From positions 1-38,738 of the forward strand of contig UYNY03000008.1 in the NCBI GenBank assembly GCA_900620265.3: a stretch of DNA of 38,738 nucleotides, given 5' to 3'. The position numbers were made by a program, and so were the translations under genes. This DNA comes from Nitrosopumilaceae archaeon (GTDB lineage: Archaea > Thermoproteota > Nitrososphaeria > Nitrososphaerales > Nitrosopumilaceae). The notes beneath the pieces were generated by a model. That model made no database searches, had not been told where the DNA came from, and saw nothing but the letters and a program-made list of their open reading frames with translations. This document shows positions 6,801 through 38,577 of this stretch, piece by piece (positions within the stretch are counted from its first letter, which is position 1; each line of letters starts with the position of its first letter).

Positions 6801-6976
6801 TCGCTGCTATAATACACGCACAGCGCCCCAAGGTACGCCTCGGCGGCCGTGTCGCTATAGTTGGGGAGCCGGCTTATCAGGTCCCTTTGGATCTGCGTCA
6901 GCGGGAGGCCCATCCCGTCGACTGACTGCGGGCCGCCAAAGGGCTCGTGCCGCCTCACGCCGGGTTTCCCGGTCAC
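3896..6976 (-). CDS. Giant helical-repeat protein with HEPN-like N-terminus (1026 aa), copy A
   Basis: A 1026-residue protein starting at GTG 6976, which overlaps the TGA of the upstream gene (GTGA), so translation is probably coupled. Residues 40-140 contain a pattern seen in HEPN-like N-terminal domains of large defence proteins: AYLGALCVYY, HFAYSLRDV (66-74) and SKIAHPRK around His134. The rest is almost entirely helical and reads like HEAT/TPR-type repeats; near the end is DLTDWFVGSK. No P-loop, protease or nuclease signature was found. It is a diverged paralogue of the gene at 10048-13191 and shares both N- and C-terminal motifs. Together with the HEPN protein upstream it suggests a toxin-, sensor- or scaffold-type defence module; that role is inferred. 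Confidence 0.85.
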   Translation of the reverse strand: MTGKPGVRRHEPFGGPQSVDGMGLPLTQIQRDLISRLPNYSDTAAEAYLGALCVYYSSDYPDRASHFAYSLRDVTDHLARESQGPDEAEEGLKPERRRQLLLDTIDPSTKQSYGRDAEYDLLSKSYSVLSKIAHPRKFGSSSELCAHLSDIEGALHKITVPQIMINREIDRIISEPSSEAGAEKLVGLMTSGATQAYVVKNLPHTWLHDMARAKFFTRPKSKKHWMAHLYLYKCIDHYPDKVTEVILSYKPRTLRDDPLIFVEFLRCAKRLRVQDAAKISKFVLHEGLHDLFVHHPAWYLGVAEKLYLGGRRDLAADLAGRGLSLDSISYDKYPGGDWLNIPVRDFVGALMGEDLLPLLGLLADLLERIIKAKAGSDGRVDETDSSMCIMRPSIEASGQNLSDNLERSLVTHMRNCLAHVGMNDPDRLRSAMEVIGRKDLLIYRRLEMFAYYTFPDRFRDEMEEYAVRYVGKGEVYHEHYVMLKSHFTSMPEPVKRAITTKIMEYKVPERLRDEWLLRSLECIRDGLDGEPLAVYQRLARDGRPVPHPGYLRWGGTRITGPARAPGPLEGKSPEEAFKIMEKHVPDARSPDEALHGFSYLVRARPAESSALAMRLAGADPRVQMAFFRRIDDAVSDKRGICWGPILSLMRRVLEDLPGAGDGLAPEMTALMSHVLRGAFLNMPPGAEFRDDLWEVVRALARPERRDEAEWKALEKSMDSITKSINSHDGLSFHALILYARWLCGVSGKEALAPEVREILDEYARNPMIHTVSRHSAIGAHFPWLHRMEPEWAVEMTRGFKKSKMSKIAFWDGYRDAERLHEGIFYDLYDWYESMLNKGISKKLRRSAMYKHTFVHVLLAYLYSLDGSERIFGGFLDSLDEKKYSRDLVDYCVFEIGIAAREIQKDSGFDVGRFKGLWTHPVFSKQDLTDWFVGSKVDGETKISLYLAYAKKYRGKFNLLDDTIAELEAMADAFPSKVADCIFYMVGRPLNGYIPDDICDVLGILEKHDGVAGTLKRIRERMALRPS

Positions 6977-7737
6977 GCAGCCACCTCTATCCTGAACCCG
7001 GGGCTCGACGCGTACGGCGCGCCGGGGGCGGTGCGCGCGTTCTCACCCGAGAGCAGGAGGAACTGGTACCGCTCGCAGGTCTCGATGCACGCGGGTCCTC
7101 CCGCCGCGCCCGCGACGCGGCGGCTTGATACTGGCCCCTGGAAGCGCATGGCGGATGCTGAGTCCACGGCGTACGCGGTGCATGGCGAGTCGCGCTCGGC
7201 TAGGTGGCTGGGCACGATCCGCGTCGCCCCGAGCCTGTACGCCACCGCGTTACCCGCCGCGCGGCCGCCCCCGGACCTGCGGAGGGTCGTTATCGACCGG
7301 GTGTACGCGTCATGCATGCCGGTCGGCATCAGCAGGTGGGTGGTCCCGGAGCCAAGCAGGACGTCATGCAGGCCGTGGACAAGTGACGCGGCCGCCGCGG
7401 GATCGTCCCGGACGGCGCCGGGCCGGGTCACGCGGACGGTCCTTGCATCCCCCAGTGTGCGCAGCGCCGCGAGCGCGTCCGCCCCGCGCATCTCCCGCAA
7501 CCTGCTGCCGATCAGTGCCTCCGTGGGTCCTGGGGACGACCCGCAGAGGGCTGCATCGTGCTCAATGTGGTGCGGCCCGGCGTCGACCCACACCTCGAGG
7601 CTGTCGGTGGCCGGGCGCCCCCTCCTGCCGGGAACGCGCCTCCACCCGGCGCACGCGGACGTATTGCACGTGTCATCGATCCGGATCTCATCAAAGATAT
7701 CCTCGATCTCAAAGCGACCTGCCCGGTTCTGTGGCAC
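6973..7737 (-). CDS. Capsid-like-pattern family protein (254 aa), member 1
   Basis: GTG 7737 is the start: TTTAATAG on the minus strand (7759-7766) is centred 26 nt upstream. The last 140 residues match two genes at 32650 and 33306: THLLMPTGMHDAY, RLGATRIVPSHLAERDS, TAYAVDSASAMRFQG, ERYQFLLLSGENARTAP and PGFRIEV. The order (MP...Y, then a strand pair ending in S-x-L, then T-x-Y with A-x-x-x-Q, then a late ERYQ/GFRI pair) resembles the C-terminal half of HK97-type capsid or encapsulin proteins, but the match is a pattern only. It is first in a coupled pair with giant protein A. The family may equally be an unrelated beta-rich protein. Confidence 0.7.
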   Translation of the reverse strand: MPQNRAGRFEIEDIFDEIRIDDTCNTSACAGWRRVPGRRGRPATDSLEVWVDAGPHHIEHDAALCGSSPGPTEALIGSRLREMRGADALAALRTLGDARTVRVTRPGAVRDDPAAAASLVHGLHDVLLGSGTTHLLMPTGMHDAYTRSITTLRRSGGGRAAGNAVAYRLGATRIVPSHLAERDSPCTAYAVDSASAMRFQGPVSSRRVAGAAGGPACIETCERYQFLLLSGENARTAPGAPYASSPGFRIEVAA

Positions 7738-7758
7738 GGGGGCAGGACGGGTCGGGGC

Positions 7759-7766
7759 CTATTAAA
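7759..7766 (-). promoter_or_regulatory. TATA box for the two-gene unit at 7737
   Basis: TTTAATAG on the minus strand, 26 nt before GTG 7737. It probably drives both the 254-aa gene and giant protein A. Confidence 0.55.
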
Positions 7767-7823
7767 GTTATTTGCCTGATCATTCGATACATTACGGTAC
7801 TGGATCGACGTGCCGCGTGTGGA

Positions 7824-8462
7824 CTAGGACGGATCGCGCGCGGGATCGGGCAAGAAGCTGGCGTGCAGCCGGTTCCTGCACCAAACAACGAGGGCCGCGA
7901 TCACCTCGCGGATGATCCTCGACTCGGCGACAAGATCCCGCATGGTGAGCCCGCCGTCCGGGGCGCCGTCGTATACGAGCCTCCGGCCGGACGGGTCCCT
8001 TTCGATCCAATAGTCGCCGTGGGCCAGGGCGTTCCGGAGGCGGTTGTTCATCAGGGACGCAAACTCACCACACTCGATGGTCTTATCAAGCCTCTTCAGG
8101 ATGTCGGATATCACTGGAGGCCTCGTCATGCCGAGCCTGGCCGGATCCAGGACCTCGACGAATATCTTTGCGACGAACTCGTACGACTGGATGATATGGT
8201 AGAAGATCATGCAGCTTGTCATCTCTTCCCAGTCCGACTCTGACAGCCGGGGGAACGTGTCAGCCATTAGCGTCTTGTATTTGGCGGCATTGTCCCGTGT
8301 GATACTGATGTTGAGGAACGTAAAGTTTGTGAGGCACAGTCTGGTGAATATCCTTTCGGCCTTCCGGGAGATGACAGGCGCCTCGCGGAACCATCCATTC
8401 TCCTCCAGGTCGTGCATAAGGGACCTTACGATGCGGTCGATCCTGTCTGCCTCGGGATCCAT
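7824..8462 (-). CDS. HEPN-domain protein, probable RNase or toxin (212 aa)
   Basis: ATG 8462 is chosen because TTTATAGC on the minus strand (8482-8489) lies 23-27 nt upstream; the frame is open to 8561 but the extra N-terminus is proline/arginine-rich. The protein is all-helical and carries MNNRLRNALAHGDYWIE, where Arg143-x4-His148 with Asn after Arg is the R-[NDH]-x3-H signature of HEPN RNases, at the expected place before the last helices. HEPN proteins act as metal-independent RNases in abortive-infection, toxin-antitoxin and CRISPR systems. The downstream neighbour (7737) and giant protein A follow on the same strand, so this may be the toxic arm of that module. No nucleotidyltransferase antitoxin is seen beside it. 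Confidence 0.75.
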   Translation of the reverse strand: MDPEADRIDRIVRSLMHDLEENGWFREAPVISRKAERIFTRLCLTNFTFLNISITRDNAAKYKTLMADTFPRLSESDWEEMTSCMIFYHIIQSYEFVAKIFVEVLDPARLGMTRPPVISDILKRLDKTIECGEFASLMNNRLRNALAHGDYWIERDPSGRRLVYDGAPDGGLTMRDLVAESRIIREVIAALVVWCRNRLHASFLPDPARDPS

Positions 8463-8609
8463 GCGGGCGGGCGGCGGATCCCCCGCTATAAACGCCCGTC
8501 CGGACGGGGGCTGCCGGGCGGGACGGACCTTGTGGAAGGCCCCGGAGTGCTCTAGGCCCACACCGGTGCCGTTACGCTAACGCCCATGTGCTCAGGATCC
8601 CCGGCGGAT

Positions 8610-10047: not shown

Positions 10048-13000
10048 ATGGACGAAGGGGCCGGCAAACTGTGGATAGATCGGAGGATCACGCAGTCCCA
10101 AATCGAACTCTTTGACAGGCTGTCAGGATACAGCCATGCCGCCGCGGTCTCATACAAGGGGGCCCTGTACGCGTACCACCGCAGGGACGACCCGGATCGC
10201 GGCAGCCACTTTGCATACAGTCTGAGGGACGTCATAGACCTGCTGGCAAAGACGGGGTGGGAGAAGATCAAAACCGGGCATGTGTCCGGAAATGATCGCG
10301 GCAGGACCAGGACAAACCCGGGCAAGTCCAAGGGCTGGCGCTGGGGCAGGGATACCCGGCTGGCGGGGCTCGCGGCGCTGTTTGACCCGCTTACAAGGCA
10401 GCAATACGGGTATGGCACCGAATACCGCGTGCTGGTGGATAAATTCGCCCAGCTAAGCGAGATCGGCCACAAAAAACTAGGTATTGATACAGAGAAGATG
10501 GACGAGATACTGGCCCAGATCGAGAACATACTCCACCTGCTGACCAGACGCCAGTCAGAGATCAACGACGAGATAAAGCAGATACTGCAGAACCCGTCCG
10601 CGGAGGGTGCAAAGAGGCTGATGGCCGTGCAGACGAACGGCGCCACCCACATCCGCATAGCAAGATCCCTCACGCCCGACTGGCTCCGCCACATGGCCGA
10701 CGAGGGCTATTTCAGGGATCCAAGGAAGGGCGAGTACTGGATAGCCCACAAGTACCTGGCAAGATGCGCCAAAAGCCACCCTGAAAAGGTGGCCGAAATC
10801 ATCACGTCGTCGTACAGCACGGAGGCCCTGGAGAGGGACACCTCTATCTATATCGACCTCATAAGGTGCGTCCCGGACCTGCCCCCGGAGCACGCGGCAA
10901 AGGTGGCCCGCCATATCATAGGCAACAAGTGGTACGAGAGGTTCTGGGCCGACGAGGAGTCATACCTGGGGATCGCCAGATACATGTACCTGGAAGGCAT
11001 GCACGATGTCGCGTCCGACCTGCTTCTCCGCGCCTTTTCGGTGCCCGCCCCGGATCCTAGCGGGCTGGGCCTGCCGGACACAGAGTTTGCCATGACGGAC
11101 ATGGGCAATCTCGTCGACGGCGTTCTGGAAAAGGCGGGCAAGATTGACCTGCTCCCGATGCTCGGCACCCTGGCGGACCTGCTTGATCAGGCCATCAGAT
11201 CAGACTCGGGCCCGGGCGACATTGGCGACGCCGAGTCCAGCATGTCTGTGTGGCGGCCCACCATAGAGGACTCTGGGGAGAACTGGACCCGCGACCTAAA
11301 GTCGTCCTTCGTGGGCCACGTCAGGGACTGCCTGCTGGCGATCGGGACGAAGGATCGCGGAAACTTGAAGAGGGCCATGGATGTCATAAAGCGGAGAAAG
11401 TACCTCGTGTGGCGGCGCATCGAGATGTTCATGTACGGCAGCTTTCCGGACAGGTTCGTAAACGAGGCCGAGATCTATGCCATCAGGTACCTCGGGGACG
11501 CGGATCTGGGCCGTGCGAACCAGGCCATGCTCGGAAGGTGCTTTGCCTGGCTGCCGGCGCCCGTCAAGAGGGAGGTGCTGGCGAGGATAGACGGGGGGCT
11601 TGATCACGAAGAATTCGAGAGGATCAGCCGTCAGGCTGGCAGGGAGAGGGCGGAGATCGTCCAAGACAAGTGGGTTCTCCGGTACCTTGAGACGCTCAGT
11701 GACAACCTTGACGCAAAGCACAGGGAGAAGTACATCGGGCTGGTAGGGAGGTACGGCAGGGCGGAGGACCCGGAGCGGAGCTCTACGGATTATGAAGAGG
11801 ACGTGCCAGATCACAAGCCGGCAAGGACGGAGTTCAAGGGCATTGACGACGCGTTCGGGTACGTGGCAGGATACGTCCCTGACAACGTCGTGCCGCCGGA
11901 CTATACGATAAGGGGGTTCTCCAATATCGTCTCAAGGCACCCGCTCGAGGCGTCAAGGAGGGCCCCCAAGCTCAAGGAGGCCCACCAGCAGGTGCTGTCG
12001 GGGTTCTTTGAGGGGCTCGGCAACGCCAGGCGCGGAGATGAAGGGATGGACTGGGAGGCGCTGGTGCCCCTGATGCGCGACGTCAGCTCGCGGGTGTCAA
12101 AGGGTGAGGTTGACGGTGATGGAGTTGGGCGCATGATCTGCAGGATGCTAAGAAGCGAGTTTTCAAAGGACATGCCCGGCATCGAGCACAGGGCCCCCCT
12201 GTGGGAGATCGTCGAGTCGCTGGAGCGCGCCGGCAGGGAGGACAAGGACTATTGCAGGAGGGACTTTGAGGAGCGGGGGGACGGGCATACCATCTCCATC
12301 AACAACCTTGAGGGCCTCTCGTTCCACGCCCTGGTCCTCTATGCCATATGGGCCGCCAGAAAGGGCGACGACACTGGCCTGGACCCGGGAGTGCGCAAGG
12401 TCCTTGACGGGTACGTAGACGACCCGGGCCGCCACACGGTGTCGCGCAGCTCCGCGCTCGGGCGGTACCTGCCAAGCCTCTACGGCCTTGACAAGGAGTG
12501 GATGGTGCTGACTGCCAAGAGGATGCGCGGGAGCGAGACGGCAAATGCGTTCTGGGAGGGGTACGTAAGGTGGAACCGGCTATATGCGGACGTCTTTTCT
12601 GACCTGGGCGACCTGTACGGCCAGTTCCTCATCGGTGAGAGATCGCCGGGGATTAGAAAGACGGAGATGTTCAAGTCGACGTTTGATCACGTCCTGCTGA
12701 CATACCTGTACGGGGAGGGGGCGGGAACCATGTTCGAGGACTTTTTACGCACGGTGGACGAGGAGTCGCCGGACGAGCTGGTCGACCACTGCATATTCCG
12801 GGTGGGCATGGTGATCAGGGGCGAGCACGGGGATCCTGATTTCGACCCCGGCATGCTGGACCCCCTGTGGCTCCACCCGGTCCTGCTGGAGAGGGACCTG
12901 ACAAGCTGGTTCGTGGGCAGCAAGATGGACAGGAGGGCGTCCATATCCATGTACTCAAGGTACGTGCATGGACATACGGGCAGGTTCAGGCTGACGTACC

Positions 13001-13191
13001 GACTGATGGACGAGCTTGCGTCGTACGCCCCCGAGTTCCCGGACGAGGTATACGGGTGCCTGGACCGCCTCGTGGTCAGCGCCGTCGACGAGTTCGTCCC
13101 GGATACGGTCTGCAGGGTCGTTGAAGAGCTCGAAAAGGCCGGGAAGGACTGCAGGATGATCGTGGAAAAGATCAAGTCCCGGGCCTACTAG
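10048..13191 (+). CDS. Giant helical-repeat protein with HEPN-like N-terminus (1047 aa), copy B
   Basis: Paralogue of the 1026-residue protein at 3896-6976, on the opposite strand. Shared features: YKGALYAY then HFAYSLRDV (residues 54-62), LSEIGHKK around His141, GLSFHALVLYA in the last third, and DLTSWFVGSK near the C-terminus. The N-terminal 145 residues follow a HEPN-like layout; an insert rich in K, R, G and T (about 70-100) is absent from copy A. The remainder is helical, HEAT/TPR-like, with no catalytic motif that I can see. ATG 10048 has a weak AT box upstream. It is followed after 2 nt by a DUF3800 gene, so the two are almost certainly co-transcribed. A sensor or scaffold role in a defence module is inference. 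Confidence 0.85.
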   Translation: MDEGAGKLWIDRRITQSQIELFDRLSGYSHAAAVSYKGALYAYHRRDDPDRGSHFAYSLRDVIDLLAKTGWEKIKTGHVSGNDRGRTRTNPGKSKGWRWGRDTRLAGLAALFDPLTRQQYGYGTEYRVLVDKFAQLSEIGHKKLGIDTEKMDEILAQIENILHLLTRRQSEINDEIKQILQNPSAEGAKRLMAVQTNGATHIRIARSLTPDWLRHMADEGYFRDPRKGEYWIAHKYLARCAKSHPEKVAEIITSSYSTEALERDTSIYIDLIRCVPDLPPEHAAKVARHIIGNKWYERFWADEESYLGIARYMYLEGMHDVASDLLLRAFSVPAPDPSGLGLPDTEFAMTDMGNLVDGVLEKAGKIDLLPMLGTLADLLDQAIRSDSGPGDIGDAESSMSVWRPTIEDSGENWTRDLKSSFVGHVRDCLLAIGTKDRGNLKRAMDVIKRRKYLVWRRIEMFMYGSFPDRFVNEAEIYAIRYLGDADLGRANQAMLGRCFAWLPAPVKREVLARIDGGLDHEEFERISRQAGRERAEIVQDKWVLRYLETLSDNLDAKHREKYIGLVGRYGRAEDPERSSTDYEEDVPDHKPARTEFKGIDDAFGYVAGYVPDNVVPPDYTIRGFSNIVSRHPLEASRRAPKLKEAHQQVLSGFFEGLGNARRGDEGMDWEALVPLMRDVSSRVSKGEVDGDGVGRMICRMLRSEFSKDMPGIEHRAPLWEIVESLERAGREDKDYCRRDFEERGDGHTISINNLEGLSFHALVLYAIWAARKGDDTGLDPGVRKVLDGYVDDPGRHTVSRSSALGRYLPSLYGLDKEWMVLTAKRMRGSETANAFWEGYVRWNRLYADVFSDLGDLYGQFLIGERSPGIRKTEMFKSTFDHVLLTYLYGEGAGTMFEDFLRTVDEESPDELVDHCIFRVGMVIRGEHGDPDFDPGMLDPLWLHPVLLERDLTSWFVGSKMDRRASISMYSRYVHGHTGRFRLTYRLMDELASYAPEFPDEVYGCLDRLVVSAVDEFVPDTVCRVVEELEKAGKDCRMIVEKIKSRAY

Positions 13192-27760: not shown

Positions 27761-30541
27761 GTGGTCCGGCTCCGGGCAGAAAAGTTTGCCAGGGACTGGA
27801 AGGGCCAGGACGTAATCGAGGCGGCCGAGTCGCACACCTTTTGGGACGAGTTCTTCCACATATTCGGCATGAAGAGGCGCGACTTTGCAAAGTTCGAGTA
27901 CAACGTCCGCCTGCTGCCGAGGCCCGGCAAGGGCCTCTCGGGGCGCATCGACCTGTTCTGGCAGCGAAAGCTCCTCGTGGAGCACAAGAGCCCCGGCAGG
28001 GACCTTGACGAGGCCGACAGGCAGGCCCTGAGGTACTATGAGGGCCTGGACGCGGACATCAGGCCCCAGTACGTCATATCGTGCGACTTTAACTGGTTCC
28101 GGCTGCGGGACCTAAAGTCCGGGGGCGACACGGTATTCGAGCTAGAGCACCTCCCATCGATGCTCGGGCACCTTGGCTTCATGTCGGCCGGCGCGGACAG
28201 CGAGACATACGACGAGGAGATCAACCAAAAGGCCGCCTACAAGATGGACGCCATATACGACCTGCTCAGCAAGGAGGACTATGGGGAGGACCTGCTGGGC
28301 ATGTGGCTGGTCCGGATAGCGTACTGCCTCTTTGCCGAGGACTCTGGGATCTTTGAAAAGAACCAGTTCCGCGAGTATATCGAGAGGTATACGCGCCGCG
28401 ACGGCGGGGACCTTGGCTCCGAGCTCAACCGGATCTTCACCGTCCTTGATACCCCGCCCGGCAAGAGGCGCAGCATGCCGGCCGACCTCGGGGCCTTCCG
28501 GTACATCGACGGCGGCCTCTTCAGCGACCGGCTCGAGGAGGTGTTCTGCAGCAGGGAGATCCGCGAGGCGATCCTGGCAGCCGCCGACTTTGCCTGGGAC
28601 GGCGTATCCCCCTCCATATTCGGCAGCATGTTCGAGGGCATGATGTCCGGGACGGAGCGCCGCAGGTACGGGGCCCACTATACCACCACCAGGAACGTCC
28701 ACAGGGTCATAGACCCGCTCTTCATGGACGGCCTGTACCGCGAGTACGGCCAGATAGTGGGGTCCGACGGGACGCGCAACGAGAAGAGGTCGGGGCTCCT
28801 CCGCCTGCAGGACCGGCTCCGCTCCCTCCGGTTCCTGGATCCCGCCTGCGGGTCGGGCAGCTTTCTGATAACCTCCTACCAGGACCTCCGGACGCTGGAG
28901 CTTGACATCATCCGGTTCTGCCACCGGGAGGCCGTCATCCGGGACTCGACCGTCCTCTCAAAGGTCAACGTGGACCAGTTCTACGGGATCGAGCTAAAGC
29001 CCTATGCCGCCAAGATAACCGAGGCGGCCATGTGGATGGTGGACCACATCGAGAACCTCAAGATCGCCAACCACTTCGAGGGGGCAGAGCTCCGCATACC
29101 CCTGAGGGAGCACGCCACCATCCGCGTGGGCGACGCCCTGGAGGTCGACTGGAACGACGTGCTGCCCGGCAGGGACTGCTCCTACATCATCGGCAACCCC
29201 CCGTTCGGGGGCGGCAACCAGGGGGGCGGCGGGCCCGATCAGACAAAGCGGATAACGGGGCACGGGGACCTTGACTATGTCTCCAACTGGTTTGTAAAGT
29301 CGGCAGAGTACTGCAATGAGAGGTGCAGGGTCGGCCTCGTATCCACCAACAGCATAATCCAGGGGGAGCAGGTGGGGGACCTCTGGCCCACGATCCTTGA
29401 CAAGCACGGCATGCGGATAATATTCGGGTATACGCCGTTTCCATGGATGACCGACGCCAGGGACGCGGCACGCGTGCACGTGGTGATACTCGGGCTCTCA
29501 AAGACCCATGCGACAACCAACCATATCTATGATGCCGGCGGCGGCAGGACCGCCCACAGGTACATCTCGCCGTACCTCAGGGGGTTCTCAAAGAGGGTGC
29601 CCCTGGTGACGGCCTCGCCCGTCCCCGTGAACGGCCTCGGCAGGATCAGGCAGGGATCCACGCCGATAGACGACGGCATGTACATATTCACAGACGAGGA
29701 AAGGGAGGCGTTCCTAAAGAAAGAGCCGGGGGCCGAAAGATACCTGAGGCCGTACATAACGGGAAGGAGCTTTCTCAACGGGGGCGACCGCTGGATTCTG
29801 GAGCTGCGAAACATCAGGCCGAGCGAGCTGGCAGGGCTCGTGCACGTAAAAAAACTAACGGACGAGGTCTCCCGCTACCGCGCCGGCAGGAAGAGGAAAA
29901 ACACCATAAAGCTGGCAAGGACGCCCACCGTCTGGAACACAACGGTCATACCGGAGAGGCCGTTCCTCATACTCCCAAAGGTGAGCAGCCGGGCCCGGAG
30001 ATACATACCGGTGGGGTTCCGGAGCCCCCCCGCAATCCCAAGCGACAAGGCCTTCATAGTCGAGAACGCCACGGCTGACCTCTTCGGGCTGCTCTCGTCA
30101 AGGATGCACATGGCCTGGGTCGAGCTGGTGGCGGGCCGTATGAAGTCGGACTATTCGTATTCCTCCAGCGTGGTCTATAACACATTCCCCCTGCCGGATG
30201 GCGATCTCGGGCCCCTGGCAAGGCACGCCGAAGAGATCCTCCGGATCCGCGGCATGCACGGCGGCCAGAGCCTGGCGGACCTGTACGGCACCCCCATGCA
30301 GCCGGACCTGCTCAGGGCCCACGAGAGGCTGGACGCGGCAGTGGACCGCCTCTACCGCGAGGAGCCCTTTGGCGGCGACCTTGAGAGGTGGGAGTTCCTG
30401 CTGGGCAGGTACGAGGCCATGAGGCTGGGCGGGCTGAGGCGGTTCCGGCCCCCGAGGAAGATCAAGAAGAGGATCCCGCGGCAGCCCGGGCCCGCACCGC
30501 GCCGGCGCGCGGCCGGATCGCCATCCCGAAGGCGATCATAG
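27761..30541 (+). CDS. MmeI-type (type IIL) restriction-modification enzyme (926 aa)
   Basis: A single-chain enzyme expected to methylate and cut DNA. The N-terminal nuclease has GRIDLFWQRKLLVEHKS, where Asp64-x9-Glu74-x-Lys76 fits the PD-(D/E)xK spacing of MmeI. A helical spacer follows, then the N6-adenine methyltransferase with DPACGSGSF (SAM site, from residue 360) and NPPF (catalytic, from 479). The target-recognition region and the family-typical YNTFPLPDG come near residue 810. Length is almost that of MmeI (919 aa). All key motifs are intact, so activity is plausible. GTG 27761 is the first start in frame; no TATA box was found and a G11 run lies just before it. The C-terminal ~40 residues are Arg/Pro-rich. 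It heads a defence-like island. Confidence 0.92.
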   Translation: MVRLRAEKFARDWKGQDVIEAAESHTFWDEFFHIFGMKRRDFAKFEYNVRLLPRPGKGLSGRIDLFWQRKLLVEHKSPGRDLDEADRQALRYYEGLDADIRPQYVISCDFNWFRLRDLKSGGDTVFELEHLPSMLGHLGFMSAGADSETYDEEINQKAAYKMDAIYDLLSKEDYGEDLLGMWLVRIAYCLFAEDSGIFEKNQFREYIERYTRRDGGDLGSELNRIFTVLDTPPGKRRSMPADLGAFRYIDGGLFSDRLEEVFCSREIREAILAAADFAWDGVSPSIFGSMFEGMMSGTERRRYGAHYTTTRNVHRVIDPLFMDGLYREYGQIVGSDGTRNEKRSGLLRLQDRLRSLRFLDPACGSGSFLITSYQDLRTLELDIIRFCHREAVIRDSTVLSKVNVDQFYGIELKPYAAKITEAAMWMVDHIENLKIANHFEGAELRIPLREHATIRVGDALEVDWNDVLPGRDCSYIIGNPPFGGGNQGGGGPDQTKRITGHGDLDYVSNWFVKSAEYCNERCRVGLVSTNSIIQGEQVGDLWPTILDKHGMRIIFGYTPFPWMTDARDAARVHVVILGLSKTHATTNHIYDAGGGRTAHRYISPYLRGFSKRVPLVTASPVPVNGLGRIRQGSTPIDDGMYIFTDEEREAFLKKEPGAERYLRPYITGRSFLNGGDRWILELRNIRPSELAGLVHVKKLTDEVSRYRAGRKRKNTIKLARTPTVWNTTVIPERPFLILPKVSSRARRYIPVGFRSPPAIPSDKAFIVENATADLFGLLSSRMHMAWVELVAGRMKSDYSYSSSVVYNTFPLPDGDLGPLARHAEEILRIRGMHGGQSLADLYGTPMQPDLLRAHERLDAAVDRLYREEPFGGDLERWEFLLGRYEAMRLGGLRRFRPPRKIKKRIPRQPGPAPRRRAAGSPSRRRS

Positions 30542-30805
30542 GTCCGGCCCCCGGGCGGCGCCAGTCCGCCACTGCCGTGCCACGGGAACCGTACACCACG
30601 ACGCCCCCGATCCCGGCGCTTGCCGGGTCTGCGCGCCCATGATATGGGACGGCACGCCCCCGGTGGATCCAAGGGTGGTACCTGCGGCACTACATAGAAT
30701 CTGCCATCATGCGGCCTGTTCTTTATCTTGACGCGCATATTGGCGCAGAATCTTGGCGCGTGCCGGCAGCACATGATCCCGCTACGCACAACCGGGCGAA
30801 AAATT
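30542..30805. other. Spacer with candidate operator before the TIR-transposase fusion
   Basis: Holds a 7-bp direct repeat TTGGCGC (30740-30746 and 30753-30759, period 13) about 50 nt upstream of the TATA box, and CCCATGATATGGG (near 30637), a short inverted repeat. Both could bind a regulator. No gene seen. Confidence 0.35.
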
Positions 30806-30813
30806 TATAAGCT
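30806..30813 (+). promoter_or_regulatory. TATA box of the TIR-transposase fusion gene
   Basis: AAAAATTTATAAG gives a strong TATA box (TTTATAAG, centred 25 nt before GTG 30834). Confidence 0.65.
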
Positions 30814-30833
30814 ACCCCTAATGACGTTCCTTC

Positions 30834-32534
30834 GTGGATCAGATCTTCATCAGTTGCCCGACATCGAAGCCCATGATCACGTGCGGAAGAAATCTTCGCG
30901 GCGAGCTTGAAAGATGCGGGTATGGGGGCTATATCGCATCGGATAACCCAATGTACGGGTATAGCCTCCTTGACAAGGTAAAGTACGAGATTAGGGCGTC
31001 CAACCTATTGATCGCCCTCCTGTTCAAAAAGCCCTCGTCATTCGTGTTTCAAGAGATTGGATATGCCGAGAATTACATCCCCGTCGTGTATATGGTGGAA
31101 AGGGGCGTCACTGATGTCGGAGGGTTCATGCAGGACAGGGAGTACGAGCCGTTCACCGTCGATGACTTTTCCTCCAGCGCAGAGCGGATATCCTCCCGGA
31201 TCCCGGATATCCTTGCCAGATATGCCGCCGAAAATCGCCCCGTCGGCACGTCCGGCCACCCCGTGCCCGGCCCCCCAAGTTATCCCCCCCCCCAGCTCCG
31301 CCATAGCCCGCATGGACGTCCAACTCCATATCGGGCCGGATCTGCGGGCGTGATGGGCACTTCACACGATGACGCCGGGCGCCTGCTGCCCCTGAAGGAC
31401 TATATCGCCAACTCCCCGCCCGTCCCCGACTGGTACGCCTCGATCTCCCGGTCCGTCAGGATGGAGACTGACGACCTGAGCCGCACCATGCGCTTTGGCA
31501 GTACCTGGGGGTTCTGCCAGGTGATGATCCGCGTGGGAGGGAGGACGCTGTGGCTTACGGCGATAATAGACACGAAGACCAGCTACATACTGTCGTACCT
31601 GCTGTCACTGGACAAGCCGGACAATCCAAAGACAGCTCAGATCCTGCAGGAGGCCCAGATCTCCGCCGGGATCCCCTCGGTGGTGGAGGGGACTATCCCC
31701 CACTGGGAGACTGGGCAGCTCAGGGATACCCTCGAGTTCACGATGGGAGACAGCCTGCTGGGCTGCCCGCGATACATGGAAAGCGGCAGCGGCCTGATAC
31801 GGTTCATGAAATTCCTGGAGGCGGTTCTCAAAAAAGCGTGCACGGACTCCCCCTGGCTGGATATGACGGAGATGAACCGTAGCGTCGAATACAGCGTCAT
31901 CAACCATAACTTCTTCCCCCGGCCGTACGAGCCCGGAATCCCGGCCGACAACGCCAATTTCAAGACAAAGTTCAGAAGCACGGTCGAAATACACAACCGT
32001 GCAATGTCGGGGGACAAGGGCTTTCTGATCAAGCTCGGCGGCAACACGAGGCACGTAAAAATCGTCCAGTCCCCCGAGTACGGCATGATCTATCTCTACA
32101 TAAAGCCCGGTGCAAACAGGATGGTGCGCGGCGAGATAGAATCGACCCTTGCGGGCTGCGGGTTTGAACTCGAGGGAAAGTCATGGCGCCGCCAGTTCCA
32201 GTTCCTGCACACACAGGGCGTCATGGGTGAGAGCGCCCTTCCAAGGCAGACGTTCAGCATATGCAACAAGTGCGGCATCGCCTCCCTCTCGCTGCAGGAG
32301 GCGTCAAGGGTCAACGGGTTCCTGGACGACTCTGGCCGCGTCAGGATCCAGCCCACGTGCAGGGTGTGCAAGCACGGCTCGGATCACCCCCGGAGGCGGT
32401 TCCGCAGGCGTCCCGCCCGTCCCCAGCTCCGCCCACTGGCCCTGACGCTAGACGCGTTTGCGGGAGGCCCCGAGCCCGCCGCCCACGCCGTGGTACAGCC
32501 CGAGCCGCGGCATATTGAAGGCGTGGGGGCTTAG
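30834..32534 (+). CDS. TIR domain fused to a catalytically dead DDE transposase-like domain and zinc ribbon (566 aa)
   Basis: GTG 30834 follows a strong TATA box. Residues 1-130 are a TIR domain: IFISCPTS, ASDNPMYGYSLLDKVKYEIR, NLLIALLF, and VFQEIGYAE with Glu74 at the NADase position. A Pro-rich linker (135-180, over a C9 run) follows. Residues 195-385 resemble the IS6/IS240 DDE core: W225 to D246 aligns without gap to the family pattern WxxDET...VD, but the catalytic Asp is Cys228, the next Glu is Gln229, and the second catalytic Asp position is Glu285 (VVEG). NFFPRPYEPGIPAD matches the usual transposase end. Residues 390-460 are unassigned; a C4 zinc ribbon (CNKC...CRVC, 477-512) follows. 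Likely a domesticated DNA-binding module coupled to an NAD-cleaving effector; this role is inferred. Confidence 0.75.
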   Translation: MDQIFISCPTSKPMITCGRNLRGELERCGYGGYIASDNPMYGYSLLDKVKYEIRASNLLIALLFKKPSSFVFQEIGYAENYIPVVYMVERGVTDVGGFMQDREYEPFTVDDFSSSAERISSRIPDILARYAAENRPVGTSGHPVPGPPSYPPPQLRHSPHGRPTPYRAGSAGVMGTSHDDAGRLLPLKDYIANSPPVPDWYASISRSVRMETDDLSRTMRFGSTWGFCQVMIRVGGRTLWLTAIIDTKTSYILSYLLSLDKPDNPKTAQILQEAQISAGIPSVVEGTIPHWETGQLRDTLEFTMGDSLLGCPRYMESGSGLIRFMKFLEAVLKKACTDSPWLDMTEMNRSVEYSVINHNFFPRPYEPGIPADNANFKTKFRSTVEIHNRAMSGDKGFLIKLGGNTRHVKIVQSPEYGMIYLYIKPGANRMVRGEIESTLAGCGFELEGKSWRRQFQFLHTQGVMGESALPRQTFSICNKCGIASLSLQEASRVNGFLDDSGRVRIQPTCRVCKHGSDHPRRRFRRRPARPQLRPLALTLDAFAGGPEPAAHAVVQPEPRHIEGVGA

Positions 32535-32649
32535 GGAGGCAGGACTTTGACAACCCAAAGTACGCGAGCGGCTAGGACGGCGGGGGTCCCCTTATCTGGG
32601 AGGGTGGAGACCTGTCAATCTCAGGGGGCACCCAGATGGACTTGAGGTC

Positions 32650-33282
32650 ATGATAGACGCCAGACCGTATCACGTGACCCACCATGAGACCATGACCGCC
32701 GGGTGGTCCCCCGAGTCCGTCTCGGCCCGGATCGCCCAAAAGGCGGGCGCCCTGCGTGGCAGATCCGCATACAAGGTAATACGTACTATAAAGGACACGA
32801 GGCCGATTCACGGGATCGGATACTGCTCAGACCTGACGGAATATGTCCATCAGGCGTCGTTCTTCATACGAGATTTGTACTATATCCTCCACGAATCCGG
32901 CAGGATGACCCATGTACTGATGCCAATCCACATGCACAACACATACTGCCAGGCCATAGACTTCCTCCGCAGGACGGCCGCTTGGCACGAGTATGTGACA
33001 CAGAACGCGTCTCCCTCTAGACTTGGCAACATCCAGATCATTCCAAGCGAACTCGCCGGTCTGGACTCGGACAGCACCGCCTATGCGGTCGACGCGTCCT
33101 GCGCACTGTGCTTCCAAGGGCACGAGTCGTGCCACTATCGCTCCAACATGTCCGGGTGCGCGACCATTGAGACCCGTGGCAGGTATCAGTTTTTGCTATT
33201 GTCGGAGGAGAACGCTCGCACGGCTCCAGATACGCCATACCGAACATGGCCCGGGTTCAGGATAGAGGTGAGGTCTGAATGA
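32650..33282 (+). CDS. Capsid-like-pattern family protein (210 aa), member 2
   Basis: ATG 32650 opens a 210-residue protein whose last 120 residues closely match the 254-aa protein at 6973-7737: HVLMPIHMHNTY, FLRRTAAW, RLGNIQIIPSELAGLDS, TAYAVDASCALCFQG, ETRGRYQFLLLSEENARTAP, PGFRIEV. The N-terminal 90 residues are helical (VSARIAQKAGALRG, YVHQASFFIRDLYYIL). The arrangement is reminiscent of HK97-fold shell proteins, though much of a full capsid would be missing. The next gene (33306) starts 24 nt later and is another member, so they form an operon. Base composition is less GC-rich than the flanks. Function uncertain. Confidence 0.7.
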   Translation: MIDARPYHVTHHETMTAGWSPESVSARIAQKAGALRGRSAYKVIRTIKDTRPIHGIGYCSDLTEYVHQASFFIRDLYYILHESGRMTHVLMPIHMHNTYCQAIDFLRRTAAWHEYVTQNASPSRLGNIQIIPSELAGLDSDSTAYAVDASCALCFQGHESCHYRSNMSGCATIETRGRYQFLLLSEENARTAPDTPYRTWPGFRIEVRSE

Positions 33283-33305: not shown

Positions 33306-34109
33306 ATGCATAGGTATACAAGTCCGAAGCTCACTAGGAGGATCGAGCCATACGATATATACAAGATGCACACACTGCTGCCAGAGCCCTGCATGGAGGT
33401 GATGCCGTACATGCATCAGATGCTCCCTCTTGACGAATCAAGACGTGTCCGTGGTAGGGATATAACATTCGTCAACGAGAGGCTTGATCCTGTCCGGTAC
33501 TACGCAACGTATGTGACACCGTATGAAACCAATCTGCGCCTGAAAAGAATGCAGATGTTTTGGCACAACTGGAAGCGAAACCATATAGAGGAATCCATAA
33601 AGCCCCTTGAAGATCTTCCCTGTAAGAACATGGGCCCCGTGAGATATGCCGCAGGTAGCTTGGACCTTCCATATGCACGATCTATCTTGGACGAGATTGA
33701 TGGCTATATATCCGAATACAATGACTCCCACGAGGATCAGATCGCGTACCTTATGATGCCAAGGAGCCTGTATAGGAGGTATGTTAGCAACGCGCTTCTT
33801 GCAAGGCCTAATGCCTGCAAGAACGCTCCCCGGGAGACGGGCACTGGAATCCTGGTGGATCTTGGCGGCATCAGGTTGGTCGTGAGTCTTGAGCTAAACA
33901 ACATCTCTCAGAACACCATCTATCTGACAACCGGGGAGCATGCCTTCCGGGCCCAGAGCCCCGTATCCATGGTCACGGACTTTGACTATTTTGACAGTAC
34001 TGGGCGTGTATCATACGTCGAGAGGTACCAGTACTTTTGCGACCCCGACTCGGGGTTCCGGATACAGGTGGAGCCAGAGCTGCACCCTGATCTCCTGTGG
34101 CTTTGTTGA
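33306..34109 (+). CDS. Capsid-like-pattern family protein (267 aa), member 3
   Basis: ATG 33306 lies 24 nt after the previous stop. N-terminal 130 residues are helical with many Arg, Met and Tyr. Then come IAYLMMPRSLYRRYVSNALL, GTGILVDLGGIRLVVSLELN, TIYLTTGEHAFRAQSP and VERYQYFCDPDSGFRIQVEP. These occupy the same order as in the two other family members, and the run MPRS-Y, G-G-I-x-x-V-V-S, then T-x-Y-L is what HK97-type capsid or encapsulin C-termini look like. Length (267) is near that of encapsulins. It is more diverged from members 1 and 2 than they are from each other. A shell-forming role is a hypothesis only; no portal, terminase or protease gene is seen nearby. Confidence 0.7.
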   Translation: MHRYTSPKLTRRIEPYDIYKMHTLLPEPCMEVMPYMHQMLPLDESRRVRGRDITFVNERLDPVRYYATYVTPYETNLRLKRMQMFWHNWKRNHIEESIKPLEDLPCKNMGPVRYAAGSLDLPYARSILDEIDGYISEYNDSHEDQIAYLMMPRSLYRRYVSNALLARPNACKNAPRETGTGILVDLGGIRLVVSLELNNISQNTIYLTTGEHAFRAQSPVSMVTDFDYFDSTGRVSYVERYQYFCDPDSGFRIQVEPELHPDLLWLC

Positions 34110-34863: not shown

Positions 34864-34884
34864 AGGCGGCCTCCGGTGCCCCCC

Positions 34885-36150
34885 GTGTACGATGCCATAG
34901 ACGAGCGGAAGATATTCACCGAGGCCTCCGACCGGCAGATAGGTAGCCTGTGTGACAGCATTGACAAGGGCCGGCTTGACGTCCAAGCCGACTTTCAGAG
35001 AAAGTACGTCTGGGACAACAGGCCAGAGCTAAAGAGCCGGCTCATCGAGTCCGTCCTACTAAAGGTCCCGATTCCTGTCGTATACGTGGCCGAAGACGAC
35101 AAGGGGATGGAGGTGGTCGTTGACGGCCAGCAACGGCTCAGGACCTTCCACGGGTTCCGCAGGAAGGGTGGGTTCAAGCTGAAAAAGCTGCAGATCCTGC
35201 ATGTTCTCAACGGAAAGGGATACGACGAGCTCCCCAATGAAATACAGTCCAGGATCGACGAGTATCCTATAAGGGTCATAAAGATCCAGAAAGAATCGCA
35301 CCGGGATATAAAGTTCGACGTATTCGAGCGCCTCAACAAAGGATCTGTAAAGTTGAACAACCAGGAACTGCGCAACTGCATGTACCGTGGCAGCCTCAAC
35401 TTGTTGCTCATGGATCTTGTGAGCAACCCAGATTTTATGGAAATACAGAACCTACGAAAACCAGATCCTCGAATGCGCGACGCTGAACGGATACTGCGAT
35501 TCTTTGCGTTCTCGGATCGCGGCATCCAGAACTACAAGTCCCCATCGAAGGAGTTCCTGAATCTCTACATGGAGAGGAACAGGGAGATAACGGCCGATGA
35601 GAGAGTAGAAAAGTCCAACCTATTCAAGAAGTGTAGCAGCTTGTGCCGCTCTGTCTTCGGGAATCTAGCTGCACATAGGTGGGTAAAGATGGAAGGCAGT
35701 AACGGCGGATATGTGGCCTCCAAATTCAACGACGGCATACTTGACATGCAGATGCTGGGGTTCAAGGAATATGCCAAGCGAGACATAATGCCCCGCCTCC
35801 AGGTGATCAGAGATGCCTATATCGACCTTGCGTGCACAGACGAATTTGTGGATACAGTGCAGATCGGTACCTATGGGACGAGCCAGACCAAGAGGCGTAT
35901 GGAGATGTGGCTGAACAGGCTTCGTGAGGTGGCTGGTTATCCGTCCGACGACTCCCGATTCTACACGTCATCCGACAAGGATATCCTGTTCAGAAAAGAA
36001 GGAGCCAGTTTGTGCGCCATATGTGGCAACCTTATACTGGACGCGGATGATGCTCACGTGGATCACATAGAGCGCCACTCCGACGGTGGCAAGACGGACA
36101 TTTCAAACGCGCAGCTGACCCACCGCTACTGCAACCTTGGGAAGGGGTAG
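34885..36150 (+). CDS. DUF262-HNH nuclease, GmrSD-like (421 aa)
   Basis: GTG 34885 is preferred on promoter spacing. The N-terminal DUF262 domain shows DFQRKYVW, then VVDGQQRLRTF (DGQQR near residues 80-84), the ParB/Srx-like nucleotide-binding signature, and FERLNKGSVKLNNQELRN further on. A helical middle follows. The last 50 residues are an HNH nuclease with a zinc-binding CAICG, HVDHIERHSDGG and LTHRYCN. DUF262 with HNH is the layout of GmrSD-type restriction enzymes and of phosphorothioate-linked SspE-like nucleases, which cut modified or foreign DNA using nucleotide hydrolysis. All key residues are present, so it is probably functional. It sits between TIR and restriction-modification genes, which fits an anti-phage role. 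Confidence 0.9.
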   Translation: MYDAIDERKIFTEASDRQIGSLCDSIDKGRLDVQADFQRKYVWDNRPELKSRLIESVLLKVPIPVVYVAEDDKGMEVVVDGQQRLRTFHGFRRKGGFKLKKLQILHVLNGKGYDELPNEIQSRIDEYPIRVIKIQKESHRDIKFDVFERLNKGSVKLNNQELRNCMYRGSLNLLLMDLVSNPDFMEIQNLRKPDPRMRDAERILRFFAFSDRGIQNYKSPSKEFLNLYMERNREITADERVEKSNLFKKCSSLCRSVFGNLAAHRWVKMEGSNGGYVASKFNDGILDMQMLGFKEYAKRDIMPRLQVIRDAYIDLACTDEFVDTVQIGTYGTSQTKRRMEMWLNRLREVAGYPSDDSRFYTSSDKDILFRKEGASLCAICGNLILDADDAHVDHIERHSDGGKTDISNAQLTHRYCNLGKG

Positions 36151-37200: not shown

Positions 37201-38577
37201 GTGAAAGGCCGGATATTCATAAGCTGCATCAACAAGGCGGCGATCAGGTATGCCCGGGTGCTTGAAGCCATGCTTAGGGAGGCCGGATATGACCCCTATC
37301 TCTCAGCAGATAACCCCGAATACGGGAGGTATCTCCTTGACAAGATAAAGACCAAGATACGCCGATCCGACCTCGTGATCGGCATCATATCCAACGAGTT
37401 GTCGGTATTCGTGTACGAGGAGCTGGCCTATGCGGAGGACCGGGTGCCCGTAATCCGGATGGTCGAGGCCGGGACACGGGTGGACGCAAGCGGGTTCACC
37501 CATGGCAGGGAGTACGAGCCGTTCGAGGCGGACGGGTTTGAAGCCAGCACCCTCCGGGTGCTCCGGTATATAGAAGAGCGCGGCATCAGGAACCTTCCCA
37601 AGCACCCGGTGCTTACTGATCCGCCTGAGCGAGTCCCCCTGCATGAGCCCGGCTTCAGAGAGTACCCTGCGGGATGGGCCCCCGACCATGTGATGTTCCA
37701 GGTCGGGACGAGGAGGATCCTCCCTGTGGCGGGTAGCGCCCAAAGGCGCCTCTGGCCCCGCCGCCTGTTACGCGGTGCTAGGGCCACGCAGGAACCTAAC
37801 CTGGGAGGAATAGGGGGTGCCGTCCCGGCGCCCGCAGTTGATGTGCAGCGGCGCGCCGGACGACCCCGGGGTCGCCTGCGCGGAGTGGGACGCCCAAAAT
37901 CCGCAGGTACCTGGCCAGATCCTCGTAAAACCGGTTCAAGAAAGCAGACGCTGGTATACGCGAGGATCTCAAAGTCCCTGTATTCTGCAAAGGACACGGC
38001 CGAGAAGTTACTGCTTGAATACAAGGCACGCGACAACCGCAGAGACGGCGAACTGGCCCTACACAGGGCAAAGATCCTGGTACTACAGGATGACCTGTCT
38101 GACCTGTCCGAGGCGTTTGACAGGATAATGAGGACTAGCGGTGATTACCTGCACGACGAAACGCGTTGCCGCATTGAGATGATCTCAAGGCTGTGCAGGA
38201 TCGGACCTGGCCTTTCAAGCAGAAAACCGTCGACAGGCCCCTCGTTCTACGCCGATCTGTTATATGAGATCTCTGACGCCGCTGCAAACCTCATGGACGT
38301 CTTTCCCAAATACCCAGAGGAGCGCATGTTCACAGTATCCTGCGACCGATCGGCATATCCGGTAGGTGGCAAGATCCACGCGTGGGCATGCGCGCCCGAT
38401 GCCGAACACTGGGCCCCCATGAAATTCGAGATATTCGACGGCAAGATGGATATGATAGACGTAAAGATTACCAGCTCCCGGCACAGTCGGCCACCCGGCC
38501 AAAGCATCGCGACCCACGGCGTCAGCTTTAGAATGGATAAAGACCTGTATAGTTACGTGCAAAAGTTTCTGAACTAG
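37201..38577 (+). CDS. TIR-domain protein with C-terminal Ig-like domain (458 aa)
   Basis: GTG 37201 follows a TATA box and a perfect inverted repeat. Residues 1-125 form a TIR domain closely like the one at 30834: RIFISCINK, SADNPEYGRYLLDKIKTKIR, DLVIGIIS, VFVYEELAYAE with Glu74 at the NADase position, VPVIRMVE, HGREYEPFEADGF. Residues 180-245 are Arg/Gly/Pro-rich and look frameshifted or inserted. A helical region (250-345, TAEKLLLEYK, SDLSEAFDRIM) and an Ig/MG2-like beta domain follow (FTVSCDRSAYPVGGKIHAWA, KFEIFDGKMDMID). TIR proteins of this kind hydrolyse NAD or make signalling nucleotides in anti-phage defence. The downstream regions could recognise a trigger. Role inferred. Confidence 0.8.
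   Translation: MKGRIFISCINKAAIRYARVLEAMLREAGYDPYLSADNPEYGRYLLDKIKTKIRRSDLVIGIISNELSVFVYEELAYAEDRVPVIRMVEAGTRVDASGFTHGREYEPFEADGFEASTLRVLRYIEERGIRNLPKHPVLTDPPERVPLHEPGFREYPAGWAPDHVMFQVGTRRILPVAGSAQRRLWPRRLLRGARATQEPNLGGIGGAVPAPAVDVQRRAGRPRGRLRGVGRPKSAGTWPDPRKTGSRKQTLVYARISKSLYSAKDTAEKLLLEYKARDNRRDGELALHRAKILVLQDDLSDLSEAFDRIMRTSGDYLHDETRCRIEMISRLCRIGPGLSSRKPSTGPSFYADLLYEISDAAANLMDVFPKYPEERMFTVSCDRSAYPVGGKIHAWACAPDAEHWAPMKFEIFDGKMDMIDVKITSSRHSRPPGQSIATHGVSFRMDKDLYSYVQKFLN

Follow-up and report, generated by a model that had tools for sequence, protein, structure and literature searches.

A gene joining a TIR domain to a catalytically incomplete IS240-type transposase core in a Nitrosopumilaceae archaeon, a candidate single-chain effector gated by nucleic acid

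The stretch of DNA analysed here (38,738 nucleotides, called the window below) carries on its forward strand an open reading frame of 566 codons with a GTG start (30834..32534), which was read in the sequence as one intact gene; all features of this gene mentioned below lie on the same strand. The encoded protein (the fusion protein) consists, in this order, of a TIR domain, a Pro-rich linker, an IS240-type DDE core, a small alpha/beta domain, a C4 zinc ribbon, and an Arg-rich basic tail. By eye, and with the spacing rule for archaeal TATA boxes in mind, a candidate box (TTTATA; 30804..30809) was found about 27 bases 5' of the GTG; it is possibly the gene's own promoter, with a leaderless mRNA. 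The 2.0-Mb genome to which the window belongs has an archaeal amoA gene (PF12942, 392 bits), and the host was therefore regarded as an ammonia-oxidising archaeon. Proteins with HYR domains and with a bacterial-surface Ig-like domain, the model of which is presumably the former DUF5011, are also encoded in the window. TIR-like, HYR and Ig-like (DUF5011) proteins are described for an Ianthella basta symbiont in PMC6790972, and that the present host lives in a sponge is only a guess.

The fusion protein matched no Pfam family at E <= 1, the TIR part included, no PADLOC model (Thoeris and other systems) at E <= 1, and no NCBIfam family, and a sequence search of the PDB gave nothing better than E 0.41. 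The TIR domain (residues 1-130; 30834..31223) was aligned with TIR sequences from the window, from a second copy of the gene (L004; see below) and from related genomes (ten sequences in total); in this alignment, the L004 sequence is 95% identical to the fusion protein, and the remaining eight are 25-42% identical to it. Pfam TIR_2 was matched by eight of the ten aligned TIRs, the fusion protein's own TIR matching no family. When the profile of the ten TIRs was compared with the PDB, TIR NADases were matched (best, 2.7e-7), and CMP hydrolases and deoxyribosyltransferases, which belong to the wider fold, matched more weakly (1.5e-4 and worse). By alignment and profile, the assignment of residues 1-130 to the TIR superfamily (PF13676/PF01582) holds. 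TIR domains often destroy the NAD of the cell, and Glu74 of the fusion protein (31053..31055, in VFQEIGYA) occupies what we take to be the catalytic position of TIR NADases; it is invariant in 10 of 10 rows. The initial annotation, which had read the N-terminal 130 residues as a TIR domain with this glutamate, was borne out here.

Residues about 198-385 (31425..31988), comprising the last helix of a helix-turn-helix and the DDE core, were assigned to the transposase-derived part with HMM searches, hhalign and alignments. The HMM was built from 29 archaeal IS240 transposases, taken from 30 loci (L018-L047, of which L025 dropped out) after a survey that found PF13610 matches at E <= 1e-10 in 59 of 151 genomes. 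With this HMM the window ORF scored 15.9 bits, its strongest match lying in residues 218-276, and none of 10,000 shuffles of the ORF exceeded 7.7 bits; L004 scored only 6.8 bits, which is unconvincing by itself. The fusion protein does not reach the PF13610 cut-off, and PF13610 had no match at E <= 0.001 in the fusion protein's own genome. Within the core, the stretch from W225 to D246 matches the WxxDE...(V/I)D core of archaeal IS240 transposases in a gapless alignment, and the motif NFFPRP...IPAD sits where IS240 proteins have HN(Y/F)xRPH...TPA; both correspondences had been proposed in the initial annotation, the second as a retained end motif.

A search of 250 family genomes with the DDE-to-ribbon alignment matched seven, own genome included, one match (L049) covering 56 positions in a 58-aa frame with a stop. 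This search led to L053, an intact IS240-type protein of 536 aa in a related genome (G233), in which D160, D277 and E315 are present; all 14 rows of an alignment with other IS240 proteins agree in these three residues. L053 scores 33.1 bits with PF13610 (cut-off, 27), and in its DDE core a charged insertion of ~55 residues (residues about 172-226) separates the first strand from the second. By hhalign (score 44.8, P 2e-5), the fusion protein and L053 were co-linear over 286 columns, which run from the DDE core through the small alpha/beta domain and reach the zinc ribbon. The alpha/beta domain (residues 386-470; 31989..32243) is common to L053 and to L079, a fragment of 140 aa from the same genome as L053, which covers the end of the core and this domain; its secondary structure was taken from a low-confidence model. 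The fragment came from a phylum-wide search with the three-row alignment, in which 7 of 398 genomes matched, own genome included, at full length only with the window and L053; the partial matches were five rows in five other genomes (80-190 positions, ORFs of 385-468 aa).

For the control of these scores, a two-row model of residues 181-518 was run against L053 (22.9 bits; maximum in 5,000 shuffles of L053, 11.7), and real ORFs were scored as well (388 ORFs of at least 150 aa, including 44 transposases; 193 others of at least 200 aa were used). Over the DDE part, the best of the 193 non-transposase ORFs scored 24.7, and this ORF lies opposite a transposase gene (L059); at least 12 of the 44 transposase ORFs scored 26.0 or more. 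Note that many of the loci had been fetched as transposases or as matches to the DDE-to-ribbon alignment, so that the ranking against non-transposases is informative and that among transposases is not. Scores of 41-50 were reached by five non-transposase ORFs (L007, L017, L050, L051 and L052), but their matches start at about residue 427 and cover the ribbon end alone. That residues 190-520 are an unrelated domain resembling a transposase by chance is hardly credible in view of the shuffle and real-ORF controls and of the co-linearity with L053 over three successive domains, even though the resemblance stays under every curated cut-off and no confident fold was obtained. We conclude from these comparisons that the common descent of the DDE-to-ribbon part with IS240-type transposases holds.

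Structure prediction was performed with AlphaFold2 from a two-row alignment (mean pLDDT 29.4) and from a four-row alignment with two true IS240 transposases (mean pLDDT 39.7). The four-row model, though of low confidence, has the beta-beta-beta-alpha order in the core (block means 45-56). When this low-confidence model was compared with the PDB by Foldseek, no match at E <= 0.001 was obtained; TnsB/transpososome chains, interspersed with unrelated ones, took ranks 1-5, 8 and 10, none with an E below 0.64. The transposase names are not significant, and they are partly circular because transposases were among the alignment rows. The profile of the three-row alignment had no PDB match better than 0.57. 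Since both structure models are of low confidence (mean pLDDT 29 and 40), we infer the RNase H fold of the core from its homology.

The catalytic D-D-E triad of IS240-type transposases is incomplete in the fusion protein, at least two of the three residues being lost in both copies. The first Asp is replaced by Cys228 (31515..31517), read letter by letter in WGFCQVM; the alignment is gapless (WGFCQV in the window and WGLCQA in L004, against WGMDET), so that this substitution stands as first annotated. The second Asp is absent from both copies (PSVVEGTIPH in the window, PAVVEGNLPH in L004). Its replacement by Glu285 (31686..31688, in SVVEGTI), as proposed in the initial annotation, is right in that no Asp is found there, and is uncertain in register by 1-2 residues, because E285, G286 or residue 287 (T287 in the window) faces the Asp, depending on the aligner. 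As for the third residue, MAFFT with IS240 proteins pointed to Glu316 (31779..31781; YMESGSG against KMERLNG), and hhalign and the three-row alignment with L053 pointed to Glu329 (31818..31820; FLEAV against HIEAL). Both are Glu in L004, and the catalytic Glu may thus be retained as one or the other. The wider claim, that the TIR domain is fused to a DDE core without its catalytic residues, therefore needs narrowing, to the loss of at least two with the third perhaps in place. As E285 lies at the second position or next to it, and the third may be filled by E316 or E329, one could imagine the core to be an atypical nuclease that still cuts, through a C-E-E or some other site, in concert with the TIR domain. 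We regard it as very improbable, since the first Asp, present in all 14 IS240 rows, is Cys in both copies. Loss of the first Asp in DDE enzymes abolishes cutting, and from this and the missing Asp residues, DNA cutting by the fusion protein appears very unlikely.

Where L053 has its N-terminal zinc ribbon and all but the final helix of the helix-turn-helix, the fusion protein has the TIR domain and the Pro-rich linker; that final helix is retained, as are the DDE core, the alpha/beta domain and the ribbon with its four Cys. The parts that were replaced are, we assume, those with which the parent transposase bound its ends, so that the sensing of transposons is just one reading of what remains among several. 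The C4 zinc ribbon (C477/C480/C509/C512; 32262..32369), already annotated as kept, was read in the sequence, with the same residues in L004. A ribbon of this type (CxxC...FGF...G..R.QSWCRxC) also ends several large proteins with frames of 691-958 aa (L007/L051, which are one place in genome G019, and L017, L050 and L052). "Helicase-nuclease" is a weak label for these proteins, since L007 was the sole one scanned, and its helicase and TnsA-like matches were all under the Pfam cut-offs. No inverted repeats of at least 12 bases flank the fusion gene in 30500-32800; two 12-base inverted-repeat pairs were found in this interval, with all arms within the gene.

A full-length homologue of the fusion gene was found at L004:3474-5177 (contig JALCBY010000055.1; 76% identity over 568 columns). 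The contig is labelled as belonging to a Hyphomicrobiaceae MAG. The MmeI-like gene upstream of the fusion gene is entire in both the window and L004, with 98-100% DNA identity per 200-base bin, and this near-identity suggests that the contig was mis-binned and belongs to an organism closely related to the window's archaeon. The 60 bases 5' of the GTG differ at one base between the two, the TTTATA box being identical. Because two diverged copies on separate contigs have the identical TIR-DDE order, a join of separate TIR and DDE genes by assembly error, which the initial annotation had named as a possible refutation, is unlikely; the homologue in this order for which it had proposed to search is this one further copy. 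These are the two copies found in the searched data, and no third full-length fusion was found among 100 relatives or 400 genomes of the order searched with the fusion protein. Five of the 100 relatives matched, own genome included, the other four with one TIR, one zinc ribbon, a weak DDE match (L009) and a chance match (L008); nine of the 400 genomes matched, own genome included, the other eight with seven TIRs and one ribbon. L005 and L008 were considered as relatives and rejected as chance, their short similarities following neither the domain nor its cysteines. A tblastn search of plasmids and phages gave no match. Scans of viral contigs gave no relative with the fusion protein, none with L053, and none with other transposases; one further scan of viral contigs gave L070 and L071.

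Between the window and L004, dN/dS was 0.44 for the whole gene, 0.23 for the TIR part (dS 0.10), 0.40 for residues 183-518 (dS 0.38), and about 1 for the Pro-rich linker (residues 131-182; 31224..31379; 62% identity). The Arg-rich C-terminal tail (residues 519-566; 32388..32531) is 69% identical. In residues 183-518, the sensor part of the reading given below, differences occur at 71 of 240 synonymous sites but at 105 of 768 nonsynonymous ones (Fisher P 6e-8); by this measure the sensor part is under purifying selection. A decaying fusion, in which a transposase had inserted in a TIR gene and the DDE part was drifting without function, would agree with the lost catalytic residues, with a sensor part diverged beyond the TIR, with the linker value and with a dN/dS of 0.40 that is only moderate. 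It is nevertheless improbable, because the frame is open over 566 and 568 codons in two copies at a dS of 0.38 in the sensor part, nonsynonymous change is significantly rarer than synonymous, Cys228 and the C4 ribbon are common to both copies, and flanking inverted repeats of at least 12 bases are absent from 30500-32800.

The DNA identity of the window to L004 was 98-100% per bin through the MmeI-like gene and 96.5% in two TIR bins, and was 75-86% thereafter, the drop starting about 31160, near the domain boundary. The sensor part has thus diverged further than the TIR part, and the two also differ significantly in synonymous change (P 9e-5). As far as two sequences can tell, the step resembles the outcome of recombination or of a swap of the sensor half, a pattern of an arms race. 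The long DNA match between the window and L004 stops just past the fusion gene (window 32544).

The fusion gene is, as judged from family matches, among defence-type neighbours. In the window, an MmeI-like type IIG enzyme (27761-30541; PADLOC, 866 bits) lies upstream, a GmrSD/HNH protein is encoded at 34876-36150, and a second TIR gene (37201-38577), 44% identical to the fusion protein and in the TIR only, belongs to the same island. In L004, a Schlafen-AlbA_2 protein (5495-7006), the C-terminal part of which matches pAgo-associated PADLOC models (91 bits), and a short pAgo (6993-8528; PADLOC pAgo_I, 469 bits), the start of which is overlapped by the Schlafen-AlbA_2 gene, lie directly downstream of the TIR-DDE gene. 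Because the DNA match between the two regions ends just after the fusion gene, no downstream gene is a shared partner.

Taken together, we consider it somewhat the likelier reading that the gene encodes a stand-alone TIR effector gated by nucleic-acid binding of a domesticated, dead IS240-type transposase part. What was read from the sequence is the fusion, the homologies, the losses, the selection, the neighbours and the divergence; the defence role, nucleic-acid binding, oligomerisation and NADase activity are proposed. In this mechanism, the TIR domain would have replaced the N-terminal zinc ribbon and most of the helix-turn-helix of a transposase, the DDE core of which would have lost at least two of three metal-binding residues while selection retained the core, the alpha/beta domain and the C4 ribbon. 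The transposase-derived part would then bind invading nucleic acid, or a DNA-protein complex of the invader, with no cutting. Binding would gather several copies so that the TIR domains assemble, and the assembled TIRs would hydrolyse NAD+, by which the infected cell would be stopped.

As for the trigger, the proposal that the dead IS240 core senses transposon DNA or intermediates and so triggers NAD+ loss by the TIR domain, with the sensor half exchanged or diversified in an arms race and the TIR kept constant, seems to us a possible but doubtful one. Transposon DNA in particular is a conceivable trigger; that the core and ribbon which remain sense nucleic acid in general, or serve for oligomerisation, is no less likely. 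Transposases oligomerise, and the transposase part might also be taken for a scaffold for dimerisation or protein binding, the trigger of the TIR being a viral protein or a partner gene and not nucleic acid; the missing N-terminal zinc ribbon and most of the helix-turn-helix fit such a scaffold. A precedent is the staphylococcal Thoeris TIR system, which is reported to sense phage capsids (PMC12578639). On the other side, the C4 ribbon has lost none of its four Cys, and ribbons of its type end large proteins that look like helicase-nucleases, from which nucleic-acid contact is suggested, and no downstream partner gene is common to the window and L004. We hold a scaffold role or protein trigger to be rather unlikely, though the likeliest of the alternatives to gating by nucleic acid.

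Among known systems, SPARTA is the nearest, in which a TIR domain works with an RNase H-fold PIWI domain without its acidic residues, and guide and target binding brings about the formation of tetramers and the hydrolysis of NAD(P) (PMC11156904). That PIWI domains which have lost their activity go together with a separate effector is a general pattern (PMC6299218, PMC2743648). The fusion protein resembles SPARTA in that a TIR domain is linked to an RNase H-fold domain (the fold being inferred) without the catalytic acids. However, the dead domain of SPARTA is a PIWI domain in a second protein with MID and APAZ, whereas that of the fusion protein is a DDE core in the same chain, with an alpha/beta domain and a zinc ribbon. 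APAZ and pAgo models had no match in the fusion protein or in six other window ORFs scanned, and the short pAgo adjoining the L004 copy has its own Schlafen-AlbA_2 partner. By this analogy, the fusion protein is perhaps best read as a one-chain analogue of SPARTA with a dead DDE core as the sensor. IS6/IS240 transposases (PF13610) share with it the co-linear core, and L053 also the alpha/beta domain and the C-terminal C4 ribbon; the fusion protein differs from them in having the TIR domain instead of the N-terminal ribbon and most of the helix-turn-helix, in the D-to-C change at 228 and the absent second Asp, and in its gene being free of flanking inverted repeats of at least 12 bases. Other TIR proteins of the family (L010-L016, and window 37201-38577) have a homologous TIR domain with the invariant Glu, but the genomes of L010-L016 are absent from the seven DDE-to-ribbon matches among 250, so that at that sensitivity their other regions are unlike that of the fusion protein. 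The conversion of mobile-element enzymes into defence components is described for the Cas1, Cas9 and Cas12 lineages in PMC8987985; these are nucleases or integrases in CRISPR-Cas, not sensors for TIR domains.

No description of a TIR domain fused to a DDE transposase core was found by full-text searches of open-licence papers, including those on sponge thaumarchaea. TIR effectors are already known with many sensors. If the proposed reading is true, the logic of SPARTA, by which a dead RNase H-fold nuclease senses nucleic acid for a TIR domain, would extend to another branch of the superfamily, and a mobile-element enzyme would have become an immune receptor by giving up catalysis while still binding. 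Because one gene encodes the whole construct, it is open to direct test.

Several further observations were made on the surroundings of L053 and of the fusion gene. L053 follows a type IIG/DrmMI-like methylase and a PLD-SNF2 helicase (L066:7753-16642, genome G233). The pair of methylase and helicase recurs in other genomes, where the DDE gene was not seen. This position had pointed to an earlier recruitment of the module to defence, with L053 as the third gene of a defence operon; the idea was rejected, because none of 11 other contexts of helicase relatives (nine genomes) holds an L053-like gene, and its position was taken as an insertion for the same reason. Two of the 11 (L101 and L095) are weak negatives, their contigs ending about 0.3 kb and 1.6 kb downstream of the helicase, and one (L093) holds an IS240 fragment with no match to the three-row alignment model. 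In the window, the two ORFs after the fusion gene (32650-33282 and 33306-34109), which lie past the end of the DNA match to L004, belong to no Pfam or PADLOC family, and a single weak NCBIfam row for one of them was judged to be chance. The C-terminal part of the second TIR gene (37201-38577) is without a family, and its TIR weakly matches DUF4062 (16.6 bits, below the cut-off). Two ORFs of more than 1000 aa (10048-13191 and 3896-6976) gave weak matches to PADLOC Dsr1 (28.6 and 26.4 bits, respectively), which suggests that the window may hold further defence genes.
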